Source: a virus. From it: 41,484 nt of DNA. Below, one piece after another: positions 33,803 through 37,743 of this stretch. Below the pieces are notes generated by a model that saw only the letters and a list, made by a program, of their open reading frames with translations, made no database searches and was not told the origin of the DNA. Where the stretch lies: the IMG/VR virus record IMGVR_UViG_3300045996_001094, positions 1 to 41,484 of that record; one strand, 5' to 3'. Numbering within the stretch: position 1 is the first letter of the stretch; each line of letters begins with the position of its first letter. The position numbers were made by a program, and so were the translations under genes.

Positions 33803-34326
33803 GCCGCATTGAGCGCATCGGAGACGCGACCACGGCGATTTACGCGCTGTGTGAGTACCCAAGCTGGCGTCCGCGCTATGTCGGCAAGACGATCCAGTTC
33901 CTCCATGAGCGACACAAAGCCCACATTCGACGGGCCAAGGCTGGGCAAAAGCTGCCGGTCCATTACTGGATTCGCAAGCAGATTGCGAACGGCAAGCGGC
34001 TAGCTATTCAGCTTCTGGAGTATGTCCCGCCTGGCGGGGATTGGGCGGCGCGTGAGGCCGAATGGATCAACAAGCTGCGTTGTGACGGCGCTGATCTCCT
34101 GAATCTCACGGCGGGCGGGGAAGGGCTGGCTGGGCACAAGTTCACCGACGAACATCGCGCCCGCATCGCTTCCAGCCTCCGCAGCGGAGACATCTTTGCT
34201 TGCCTGCGATGTGGCAGCAAGTTCTATCGGAAGCGCAACGAGATTGCTCGCGGCCACAACAAATTCTGCTCGCGTGGCTGCGCGAACGAGGCGAACAAAG
34301 GAGGGCACTCATGCGCAAAGAAGTAA
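33799..34326 (+). CDS. GIY-YIG homing endonuclease
   Basis: This 175-residue protein has IYALCEYPSWRPRYVGKT at 14-31, the GIY-YIG-type core (here A-I-Y and R-Y-V-G). AREAEWINKLRCDG follows, carrying the catalytic glutamate region. A NUMOD3-like segment (GHKFTDEHRARIASSLR) and a C-terminal zinc-finger-like CLRCGSKF/CSRGC pair end it. It has an ATGA start overlap. It is a typical free-standing phage homing endonuclease. Confidence 0.8.
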   Translation: MSRIERIGDATTAIYALCEYPSWRPRYVGKTIQFLHERHKAHIRRAKAGQKLPVHYWIRKQIANGKRLAIQLLEYVPPGGDWAAREAEWINKLRCDGADLLNLTAGGEGLAGHKFTDEHRARIASSLRSGDIFACLRCGSKFYRKRNEIARGHNKFCSRGCANEANKGGHSCAKK

Positions 34327-35021
34327 TCGGGGATGCCCAGCTGTACCTTGGGGATTGCCTGGAGATCCTGCCGACGCTACCCAAGGTGGATGCGGTGATT
34401 ACCGATCCGCCCTACGGCTACAACTACGCGAGCAACTACACCGCCGAGACGACTACAGCATCATGGATGAATCGCGCCATAGCCAACGACGAAAGCTGTG
34501 AGGTTAGGGATGCGGTGGTGCGCTGGGCTTCTGAAATTCCGTGGGTGATGTTTGGCAGTTGGAAGATGCCGAAGCCGGAAGGGACCCGTGCCGTCCTGAT
34601 TTGGGACAAGGGGCCAGCGTCAGGCATGGGCGACCTGTCTTTCCCTTGGAAGGGCAGCTGGGAAGAAATCTACGTCGGCGGCGACGGTTTTGAGGGGCGC
34701 CGGGACGAGGGCGTCATCAAGGGTCATTGGATCGTTACCCGCGCGTCTATGGGGCGCACACACCCAAACGAAAAGCCAGCTTCGCTGATCGCGCACTTCA
34801 TCGACAAACTGCCTAATGCCCGCGTCATAGGCGACCCGTTCATGGGCAGCGGCACCACGGGTGTTGTCGCCGTTCAAGTGGGGCGCGGGTTCATCGGGTG
34901 CGAGATTGACCCTGATTACTTCGACATTGCCTGCCGCCGCATAGAGCAAGCCTACAAGCAGCGCCCCCTCTTTGAATCGGAGCCGGTCAAGGTTCCCGAA
35001 CAGCTTGGATTGGAAGCATGA
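34311..35021 (+). CDS. DNA methyltransferase (N4/N6 type)
   Basis: This 236-residue protein has the catalytic motif IV DPPY at 32-35 and the AdoMet-binding motif I DPFMGSGTT at 175-183, in that order, as in beta-class amino-methylases. LIWDKG and HPNEKP are further family blocks. The ATG lies 16 bases inside the GIY-YIG gene. With no restriction partner nearby it is a solitary methylase, likely protecting phage DNA. Confidence 0.9.
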   Translation: MRKEVIGDAQLYLGDCLEILPTLPKVDAVITDPPYGYNYASNYTAETTTASWMNRAIANDESCEVRDAVVRWASEIPWVMFGSWKMPKPEGTRAVLIWDKGPASGMGDLSFPWKGSWEEIYVGGDGFEGRRDEGVIKGHWIVTRASMGRTHPNEKPASLIAHFIDKLPNARVIGDPFMGSGTTGVVAVQVGRGFIGCEIDPDYFDIACRRIEQAYKQRPLFESEPVKVPEQLGLEA

Positions 35022-35480: not shown

Positions 35481-35780
35481 ATGCCATACGCAGCTACCGC
35501 AACTCCTGTCCGTTCCATCGAGCGGACTTCCGCCATCTCTCCACAGGATATGCCAGAAGCAAGTCAGCAGCATGTCGTCCTGACGGATGAACGCCTGTCA
35601 GCAATTTCCGACACGGCCATGAGTCCGGCCCAAGCCGACGCAGCCATCGAGCGTGCAGAGGCCGCTGTAGCCCGCCAGGAAACCCGCTACGAGCGCACCG
35701 GCTGCTTTGGTGACGCTGCCGACCTGGACCGCGCCCGCAGGCTGCTGTCTCAGCTCCTGCTTCGCTGGAGGCGCGGCTAA
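35481..35780 (+). CDS. unknown 99-residue protein
   Basis: It begins MPYAATATPVRSIERTSAIS, with a low-complexity N-terminal half, then a charged helical pair (QADAAIERAEAAVARQETRY). Its end overlaps the next ATG. No family is recognised. Confidence 0.55.
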   Translation: MPYAATATPVRSIERTSAISPQDMPEASQQHVVLTDERLSAISDTAMSPAQADAAIERAEAAVARQETRYERTGCFGDAADLDRARRLLSQLLLRWRRG

Positions 35781-36217
35781 TGGGTGCCGTCTACCTGCTT
35801 GGCAATCCGGCCATGCCGACCTTCTACAAGATCGGGATGAGCAAGGGCTGCCCCTTCGCCCGCGCCCGCCAGCTCTCGTCGTCCAGCGGCATCCCGGAGC
35901 AATTTGATGTGCTCTGCCACATCGCCACAAACAACCCGCTGCGCGACGAACAGGAACTGCATCAGTACCTGGCCGACTTTCGGAATACCGGCGTGCGGGA
36001 GTTCTTTCGGTTCGCCCCTGTCCACATGCCTTGGGTGGTTGGCCTATTCAAGCACCACCCGGCCGCGCAGTCGTTCTATCTGGCAGAGGGCACTCGTCGC
36101 ACGCGCTATCTGCCGATGGTGGCGATAGAGAACCCGTGGGCCAGCCTCGATGAGTGCGGGAACCCCGACATGACGCCCTATGCGCCTGATTACGCCTACG
36201 GGTGGGCTACGCCGTGA
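35780..36217 (+). CDS. GIY-YIG family protein (T5orf172-like)
   Basis: This 145-residue protein has VYLLGNPAMPTFYKIGMSKG at 4-23, the V-Y-L and Y-K-I-G core of T5orf172/MUG113-type GIY-YIG domains. FARARQLSSSSGIP and a later LRDEQELHQYLAD with the catalytic glutamate candidate follow. Such proteins may cut DNA or branched structures. It sits directly before the replication genes, so a role in replication is as likely as homing. Confidence 0.75.
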   Translation: MGAVYLLGNPAMPTFYKIGMSKGCPFARARQLSSSSGIPEQFDVLCHIATNNPLRDEQELHQYLADFRNTGVREFFRFAPVHMPWVVGLFKHHPAAQSFYLAEGTRRTRYLPMVAIENPWASLDECGNPDMTPYAPDYAYGWATP

Positions 36218-36996
36218 TCGTTGACCCCGACTTTCTTGAGCACTGGCGGACGCGGATGCTCGTTGACGCACTGGATGGGGACGAGTTCGCTCCGTTCTAC
36301 CTGCTCCGTCTGTGGGCGCACTGCCAAACCCGCAAGGCTACGCGCTTCGACATCCCTGCCGCTGGCGTTAAAGGGCTTTGCAAGGCTCCGCATGACGCCG
36401 CCAGGTTTGAGGCTGTGCTGATTGAGTGCGGCTACCTGTCCCGTGATGGCGCATACGTCGAGGTTCTGAAATGGGCCGAGCAGAACGCATCCCTCATCGC
36501 GGCATGGGAGAACGGGGGCAAAGGTGGACGCCCATCTAAACCCAACCAAAACCCACGGGTTCAGGATGGGAAACCCAAGGGTAACCCAGCGGAAACCCAG
36601 CCGGAACCCCGCGCTAACCCAGACGAAACCGATAAGAGGAGAGGAGATAAGAGGGGATCTCCTTCTAGCGAAGGAGAGGGAGAACAGCGCTCAACGCGCC
36701 TGCCCAAGCCCTTCACCCTCCCGGATGAGTGGAGGGCCTTCTGCCAAGCAGACCGGCCTGAACTGGACCCAGACCAGGTTGCCGCGAAGTTCTCGGACCA
36801 CTGGCACGCCAAGCCCGGCACGGCAGGCCGAAAGCTCGATTGGCTAGCGACCTGGCGCAACTGGGTGCGCGATGAGCGCGGCCCTCCCCGTTCCTCGTTC
36901 CAGTCCCGCGCTCCCGCCCCCGGCAAGTACGCCGCCGCCGCCCGAACGATCTTCGGACAACAACCACCGGACTACATCGATGCTGAAACCAATTGA
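36214..36996 (+). CDS. replication initiator (lambda O-like) containing the origin
   Basis: This 260-residue protein runs from GTG 36214 (GTGA overlap). The N-terminal region (about 1-95) reads as a winged-helix DNA-binding domain of the type at the start of phage initiators. Residues about 105-150 are a low-complexity linker rich in Asn, Pro, Lys and Gly, encoded by an 11-base phased repeat array. The C-terminal domain has LPDEWRAFCQADRPEL and RKLDWLATWRNWVRDE, typical of phage replication proteins. As in lambda O, the origin probably lies in the gene. Confidence 0.7.
   Translation: MIVDPDFLEHWRTRMLVDALDGDEFAPFYLLRLWAHCQTRKATRFDIPAAGVKGLCKAPHDAARFEAVLIECGYLSRDGAYVEVLKWAEQNASLIAAWENGGKGGRPSKPNQNPRVQDGKPKGNPAETQPEPRANPDETDKRRGDKRGSPSSEGEGEQRSTRLPKPFTLPDEWRAFCQADRPELDPDQVAAKFSDHWHAKPGTAGRKLDWLATWRNWVRDERGPPRSSFQSRAPAPGKYAAAARTIFGQQPPDYIDAETN
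36538..36621 (+). repeat. iteron array, candidate replication origin
   Basis: AAACCCA or close variants start at 36538, 36549, 36571, 36582, 36593, 36604 and 36615, that is, every 11 bases with one slot (36560) carrying a reversed GGGTT instead. The units are AAACCCA, AAACCCA, AAACCCA, TAACCCA, AAACCCA, GAACCCC and TAACCCA. Eleven is not a multiple of three, so the repeat is not a protein repeat. A purine-rich stretch with GATAAGAGG twice follows at 36631-36656 and may be an unwinding region. Confidence 0.75.
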
Positions 36997-37540
36997 CCCG
37001 AGCGCGGCATTTCGCCCGCAACGCGAAGCCCTGCCGACAGATGCCGTGAACAACGTGTTCAAGGTGATGCACGGCTTCTACGGCAACCTGTTCCTGTCCA
37101 AGTTCTCGTCAGGCGAACAGACCGACAGCGGGGAGGATTCCGGGGTGGTCAGTGCTCGCCAAGTGTGGGCGCATGGTCTGCGGGACTTCGATGCCGGGCA
37201 CGTTAAGACGGCGCTTGGGCGGTGCATGACGGCGCACCCGGAGTTTCCCCCCAGCCTGCCGCAGTTCGTGGCCCTCTGCGCTGCTGCCAAGCCGCGCCCG
37301 GTGTACGTCCCGCCTCCTTCTGCTCCGGCCCTGGAAATGAGCCAGGAGCTGCGCGAAAAGCGGCGCAACGAAGCGCTGGAGAAGGCGCGGGAGGCAGTCG
37401 CCAAGCGGGAGGAAGTCGAGAACGCCGGGCTGAACCCGCTTAAGCGTGCCATTGCCAACGCGGTTGCATGTGCTGGTGGCGATGAAGTCGCAGAACTGCT
37501 GCGGCTGGACCGGATGCTTTGCCGGAGGGTTGCAGCATGA
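36980..37540 (+). CDS. replication protein P-like helicase loader
   Basis: This 186-residue protein runs from ATG 36980, overlapping the initiator gene by 17 bases. It has VFKVMHGFYGNLFLSKF, then SARQVWAHGLRDFDAGHVK and HPEFPPSLPQFVALC. This matches phage proteins commonly annotated as replication protein P. Gene order (initiator then loader) is as in lambda. It would recruit host DnaB to the origin. The C-terminal half is a charged helix. Confidence 0.7.
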   Translation: MLKPIDPSAAFRPQREALPTDAVNNVFKVMHGFYGNLFLSKFSSGEQTDSGEDSGVVSARQVWAHGLRDFDAGHVKTALGRCMTAHPEFPPSLPQFVALCAAAKPRPVYVPPPSAPALEMSQELREKRRNEALEKAREAVAKREEVENAGLNPLKRAIANAVACAGGDEVAELLRLDRMLCRRVAA

Positions 37541-37743
37541 AGACCATCATCATCATCGAAGTCGAGCACCGCAAGCCCATTCCGGCACTCGCCAACATGA
37601 TTGCAGGCCGGGCCTACACCATCGACGGTGTATCGAACGCGCAGCCGTTCAAGTCACCATCCCTGAACGCCGGGCACCTGGAAGAAGCGGGGTTCACCCT
37701 TGCCGAGATTCGCCTTGGCGCTGACGAATTGGTGCGGTCGTGA
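37537..37743 (+). CDS. unknown 68-residue protein
   Basis: ATG 37537 overlaps the previous stop (ATGA). It begins MKTIIIIEVEHRKPIPALAN, a small mixed alpha/beta protein. No family is recognised. Confidence 0.6.
   Translation: MKTIIIIEVEHRKPIPALANMIAGRAYTIDGVSNAQPFKSPSLNAGHLEEAGFTLAEIRLGADELVRS

Follow-up and report, generated by a model that had tools for sequence, protein, structure and literature searches.

Origins of replication made of iterons located inside an initiator gene are already known. The ori of bacteriophage lambda lies inside the O gene and consists of iterons and an A+T-rich region whose purines are almost all on one strand (PMC7466680, PMC5043065). In pSK41, one of the staphylococcal RepA_N plasmids, the N-terminal domain of the initiator binds repeats placed centrally in rep, and the protein segment encoded by the ori is a mere linker that is dispensable (PMC5703833). 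The iteron plasmids RK2, P1 and R6K carry direct, helix-phased iterons adjoining a melting region and bound by monomers, and the phasing of these iterons to the helix matters (PMC5043065, PMC4980987). In the DnaA-box/DnaA-trio arrangement, double-strand sites are directly followed by a short repeated motif, presumably held in single-stranded form (PMC10797057).

We analysed a stretch of viral DNA of 41,484 nucleotides (hereafter the window), and our comparative analysis indicates that its region 36539-36677 is very likely the replication origin of the phage, embedded in the linker-coding part of the initiator gene. In the literature searched, which had most subscription journals outside its coverage, no description was found of phage iterons of 11 bp inside a gene, nor of the combination of single-turn 11-bp direct iterons, a 5-bp-period tract and a TNNC hairpin that is common to several initiator families and able to leave the coding frame.

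Iteron array in the initiator gene

Seven AACCC motifs sharing a single 11-bp phase were found on the + strand of the window, each one opening an iteron (36539-36549, 36550-36560, 36572-36582, 36583-36593, 36594-36604, 36605-36615 and 36616-36626, the sixth being an AACCCC unit), with spacings from AACCC to AACCC of 11, 22, 11, 11, 11 and 11 bp. The seven copies reported in a preliminary description of this DNA were borne out at their positions when the unit was counted from the base preceding AACCC, and the variants were then AAACCCA (four copies), TAACCCA (two) and GAACCCC (one). An eighth phased member, the half-unit AACCG at 36627-36631 (+), closes the array and runs into GATAAGAG; the resulting ACCGATAAGA junction is conserved in homologues, and the array passes through it into the following tract in 46 family members. 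Tandem Repeats Finder also picked up the array, with a period of 11 (and 22) at 36569-36630.

The runner-up site anywhere in the 41 kb window had two AACCC motifs sharing one 11-bp phase, and more than two were never seen in 200 Markov-1 sequences. When the linker was recoded synonymously 20,000 times, none of the recodings had seven motifs in phase and 16 had six. The 22-bp spacing leaves an empty slot at 36561-36571 (+), which had been described as holding a reversed copy. The GGGTT in question (36557-36561) straddles unit 2 and the slot and is out of register. Because relatives keep degraded forward units (GTTACCG, GTTACCC and CTACCC) in their equivalent slots, the empty slot is better regarded as a decayed direct unit than as an inverted one.

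Initiator protein and gene context

The gene that contains the array (36214-36996, +), recognised from PHROGs matches and alignments, encodes an O-like initiator of 260 aa with a GTG start, and its homologues share the start M-I-V-D-P-D-F-L. In PHROGs (1408/3992) the product matched a replication initiation protein (E 7e-11) and a primosomal protein (E 8e-11). These PHROGs are not O and the Pfam search of the product matched no family, so that the protein could not be placed in the lambda O family; in one relative (L086) the linker and the C-terminal part matched the O-like phrog_678. Family searches with the window initiator gave neither a RepA_N domain nor an AAA+ or DnaA match.

In the AlphaFold model, the protein begins with an ordered domain (residues 1-101; 36214-36516, +) with a pLDDT of about 95 across most of its length, followed by a low-confidence linker (residues 102-158; 36517-36687, +) that opens with GGRP, nearly invariant in the homologue alignment. 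The N-domain, presumed to bind the iterons, appears winged-helix-like: the structure search returned weak matches, mostly to winged-helix proteins, none of them below E 0.001. The C-terminal helical domain (residues 160-222; 36691-36879, +) is common to phage primosomal and replication initiation proteins. Both the array and the purine tract behind it fall within the linker-coding part of the gene. The C-domain of the window protein also occurs in the initiators of Pseudomonas F10 and LESphi2, in which no 11-bp array was seen.

A lambda P-like helicase loader gene (36980-37540, +; phrog_109, E 9e-7, scanned from 36983) overlaps the 3' end of the initiator gene, and NinB and NinG genes are found downstream of it. 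Across the family the neighbours of the array are P-like, DnaC-like and DnaB-like genes. Directly upstream, and overlapping the initiator gene, the window has a T5orf172/MUG113-domain (GIY-YIG-like) gene (35780-36217), and a GIY-YIG gene occupies the equivalent upstream place in a Vibrio phage whose initiator is of the DUF1376 type. A gene for a DNA methyltransferase of the N6/N4 type (34200-35021) is also present in the replication region. At another locus (L005, 650-1576) the initiator is of a quite different kind, and its repeats are 22-bp palindromes of the GTGACACAGTGTCAC type; the C-terminal 30 residues of the window protein nevertheless recur in it with 97% identity, and this tail beside the loader gene apparently reflects a recent exchange.

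Evidence for selection at the DNA level

Protein-based scans of IMG/VR and GTDB genomes provided 51 non-redundant homologues. In their linker DNA the identity at lag 11 was 0.513, as compared with 0.377 in synonymous shuffles (z=25), and lags 22 and 44 behaved like lag 11; in the DNA of the N- and C-domains of the 51 homologues the value was 0.26. The distances from AACCC to AACCC in the family were 11 (148 times), 22 (24 times) and 33 (five times), and the consensus of the unit was GGwAACCCAnnGG, with AACCCA as its core. The expectation that relatives would conserve the spacing above the encoded residues was thereby confirmed. The register is broken in some family members, where spacings are 10, 12 or 23 bp, and AACCC is missing from a few (L032, L096).

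The unit is read in all three frames in the family, as KP, NP or TQ/TH. Which proline codon is used depends on the frame, with CCA after Asn in 88 of 104 cases and CCC after Lys, Glu or Gln in 67 of 98; this split is absent from the remainder of the family genes. Since the 11-bp period exceeds that of the synonymous shuffles and the proline codon follows the frame, we conclude that selection acts on the DNA. The preliminary description had reached the same conclusion from the fact that 11 is not divisible by 3, which is no proof, because a protein period of 11 residues (33 bp) could also yield 11-bp similarity; it is the shuffles, the proline codons and the non-coding arrays that sustain it. 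Linker-length differences were also considered as multiples of 33, and no clean pattern was seen among the homologues because the stretch ahead of the first iteron varies.

The same array was found outside any gene. In at least 17 loci the window-type N-domain (HMM E of about 1e-26, checked for three loci) is present in a protein about 120 residues long, with GGRPKxDxPKPxKKPxGMRL immediately before the stop codon. The AACCCA array begins one or two bases past this stop, in non-coding DNA; a AGATAGATAG tract comes next, then a hairpin and a gene for a DnaB-like helicase. All of the first four units keep AACCC without exception while the intervening bases vary, and six of the loci are shorter by exactly one 11-bp unit. 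Because the spacing is kept here while coding for nothing, the array must be a DNA element. One stretch of DNA would have two jobs in the window, and this clade is a natural control from which the coding job has been removed.

Members of the non-coding clade include L223, L236, L244, L257, L259, L265, L268 and L289, and two successive hairpins, the second of which (GCCTCTCTCGC...GCGAGAGGC) is nearly invariant, stand ahead of the DnaB-like helicase gene. Another family member was seen at L111 (4618-4711), where the frame stops just before a non-coding AACCCA array and the contig ends.

It could be argued that the periodicity follows from selection on a low-complexity linker (NP-TQ-KP-NP) in the protein, or that tandem duplication produced it neutrally, as the linker is predicted by the model to be disordered and the peptide pattern is conserved across the family. 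We regard this as scarcely credible, given that synonymous shuffles strip much of the 11-bp signal, that the proline codon depends on the reading frame and that the non-coding array combines invariant core bases with variable spacer bases. For the family, the by-product explanation is already refuted.

Sequences adjoining the array

Beyond the array we found a purine tract and a hairpin that were absent from the preliminary description. The purine-rich tract GATAAGAGGAGAGGAGATAAGAGGGGA (36631-36657, +), which has a 5-bp period in the family, is a presumed DNA-unwinding element. Its lag-5 identity in 46 homologues was 0.602, as compared with 0.376 in synonymous shuffles (z=21.5), and AGA accounted for 83 of the 99 arginine codons in the tract and for 73 of 871 elsewhere. 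On family average, 78% of the bases on one strand of the tract are purines and the GC content is 39% (versus 58%).

The hairpin, TCTCCTTC-TAGC-GAAGGAGA (36658-36677, +), has an 8-bp stem and a TNNC loop closed by a C-G pair. The mean perfect stem after the tract was 5.49, versus 4.42 in synonymous shuffles (z=6.4), and TNNC hairpins were detected in seven of 46 homologues when 0.135 regions were expected, TNNC making up seven of the eight four-base loops. The signal was confined to these perfect-stem and loop-type tests, and in an energy-based test the synonymous shuffles were not exceeded. The two pairs that close the hairpin loop covary in the non-coding clade (A-T, C-G and T-A in one, T-A and C-G in the other, with every cell paired), the covariation score being 0.180 as compared with 0.057 in shuffles.

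A hairpin that covaries would form in the transcript too, and the tract and hairpin might be considered an RNA element, such as an attenuator or a translational control, lying beside protein-binding sites. This seems very unlikely, because the tract and hairpin had no Rfam match, no terminator-like site with a T run was found on the + strand, and the stems occur in some family members only.

Arrays in other phages

A DNA-only scan for three spaced units matched 29 viral contigs, and the matches outside the window protein family were in other initiator-like genes (DUF1376 proteins, the DnaD-like L101 and others); a scan for four units gave at least 120 matches. Most of the arrays picked up by pattern scans lie in initiator genes, which belong to several families. 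Altogether, four phased units were present in at least 129 distinct loci, among them 21 of the window family, 49 of DUF1376 and 59 others; this last class takes in the non-coding clade as well as several initiators assigned by visual inspection alone. The proportions are biased because some loci were obtained by protein similarity. The array had been called a distinct form of origin, which is fair as a variant, although these loci in several initiator families show that it is not peculiar to the window phage.

The DUF1376 initiators gave a lag-11 z of 15, at least three phased AACCC motifs were found in 22 of 44, and 6-7-bp AACCA-type repeats stand behind their array. The window protein had no match to the DUF1376 domain (PF07120), and profiles of the N-domains alone gave a non-significant E of 0.19. 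The models of both N-domains have helices and strands in the same order. Homology between the N-domains was rejected, since the 97% probability obtained in a whole-protein profile comparison was gone after the shared GGRPKK/linker part was removed. Control genomes were also searched for DUF1376, and no match was found in any of them, which is uninformative as a comparison. In L102, L116, L118 and L122 an isolated AACCCAGTCGGTT-like unit was seen at position 128 of the DUF1376 gene, in the part coding for the N-domain and far from the array.

In a Bordetella phage the unit is a different one (GTTCAAC-type) and still recurs every 11 bp, and some other initiators have 21-22-bp repeats. Gene 11 of Burkholderia phage Bcep176 (L126), which encodes a primosomal protein, contains 22-bp GGAACAGTCCCAAA-type repeats that are apparently a two-turn version of the array layout. 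The ydaU gene of the Rac prophage of E. coli K-12 has GTTCAAACA-type repeats, a AAGATACAGAT tract and a C-run/G-run hairpin. Rac was reported to have an active origin, oriJ (PMC3945230), for which the ydaU repeats are a candidate place only. A CCCCCC-N(4-6)-CCCCC...GGGGGG hairpin, with the peptide PPxPPxGG, recurs behind the repeats in initiator genes of different phages (L097, L033, L093, L087, L136 and L138, the last being ydaU).

Probable origin function

The best reading of these results is an origin composed of initiator-binding iterons and an adjacent melting region, in a layout like that of the lambda ori and with single-turn direct iterons. This reading fits every neighbour gene as well as the lambda layout, and because many relatives keep the layout, some of them outside genes, the array is very probably a replication start and not a by-product of the protein. 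A change in GC skew, proposed in the preliminary description as a check, was not observed: the skew over the window does not turn at the array.

Plasmid initiators often autoregulate through their iterons as well, and a protein bound to an array placed far inside the gene could block transcription into the helicase-loader gene. The array could on these grounds be a binding site for an initiator or regulator that serves as an autoregulatory operator or as a copy-number titration site and not as an origin. We consider this improbable, because the low-GC 5-bp-repeat purine tract and the hairpin have the look of a melting region rather than of an operator, a promoter-like site was not detected within 36100-37600, and the non-coding clade retains the whole cassette between the initiator and helicase genes.

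For an origin, we propose that the winged-helix-like N-domain would bind one 11-bp unit per helical turn, as phased monomers. With one unit per turn, successive monomers would be bound to almost the same side of the DNA and may form a continuous filament; a continuous row is favoured because the units are direct and one turn apart, in contrast to the lambda dimers on inverted repeats. Binding of the initiator would melt the 5-bp-repeat tract, one strand of which would be held by the initiator, and the P-like loader and the helicase would receive the opened strand from the C-domain, the hairpin possibly marking the loading or priming site. The parallels with lambda, pSK41 and the iteron plasmids make binding by the N-domain, melting of the tract and entry of loader and helicase at this place the most likely course.

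More tentatively, and with considerable doubt, these elements may belong to a widespread and exchangeable phage origin cassette, formed by single-turn 11-bp iterons, a tract of short repeats, whose length is 5 bp here and 6-7 bp in the phages with DUF1376, and a hairpin that covaries. The cassette would be common to initiator families with N-domains not detectably related in sequence, and its place would be either within the initiator gene or immediately after it. The initiator, a winged-helix protein lacking AAA+, would then run as a continuous filament from the double-stranded iterons onto the single strand, as a counterpart of the DnaA-box/DnaA-trio.

The array offers a rule by which replication origins can be located from sequence in many phage genomes that have no annotated origin, and the rule extends to initiator families still called 'unknown function' (DUF1376). 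The one-turn spacing together with the 5-bp-repeat tract provides a defined, testable model of DNA opening by a simple winged-helix initiator.

Relation to described origins

Iterons of the RK2, P1 and R6K type are 17-22 bp long and lie about two turns apart, so that they are longer than the window units, and they are outside the rep gene. The likeness to pSK41 is in the repeats central within the initiator gene and encoding a linker; the difference is that pSK41 is a plasmid with four Rep boxes, and the window protein has no RepA_N match. The DnaA-trio arrangement also has double-strand sites directly followed by short repeats, although the repeat period is 3 bp there and 5 bp here, and no DnaA box was found near the array in the window. 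The DUF1376/YdaU-type initiators have the same array, a linker after GGRPKK and downstream short-period repeats and hairpins, whereas their short repeats are AACCA-type 6-7-mers and the window protein falls outside DUF1376 by its sequence.

The lambda ori, also that of Stx phages, lies in the middle of the initiator gene with iterons that encode part of the protein (PMC7466680, PMC5043065), and it resembles the window in that the melting region next to the iterons has its purines on one strand and that the loader gene P follows. The lambda-type features found in the window were the intragenic iterons, of presumed function, the low-GC region with purines on one strand and the P-like gene following. 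Lambda has inverted repeats of about 19 bp, in four to six copies bound by O dimers, whereas window-type arrays have four to nine copies of direct 11-bp units, one per turn, in place of such inverted repeats, and Pfam does not identify the N-domain of the window protein as O. To the lambda layout the window-type array adds the 5-bp-period tract and, often, the TNNC hairpin.
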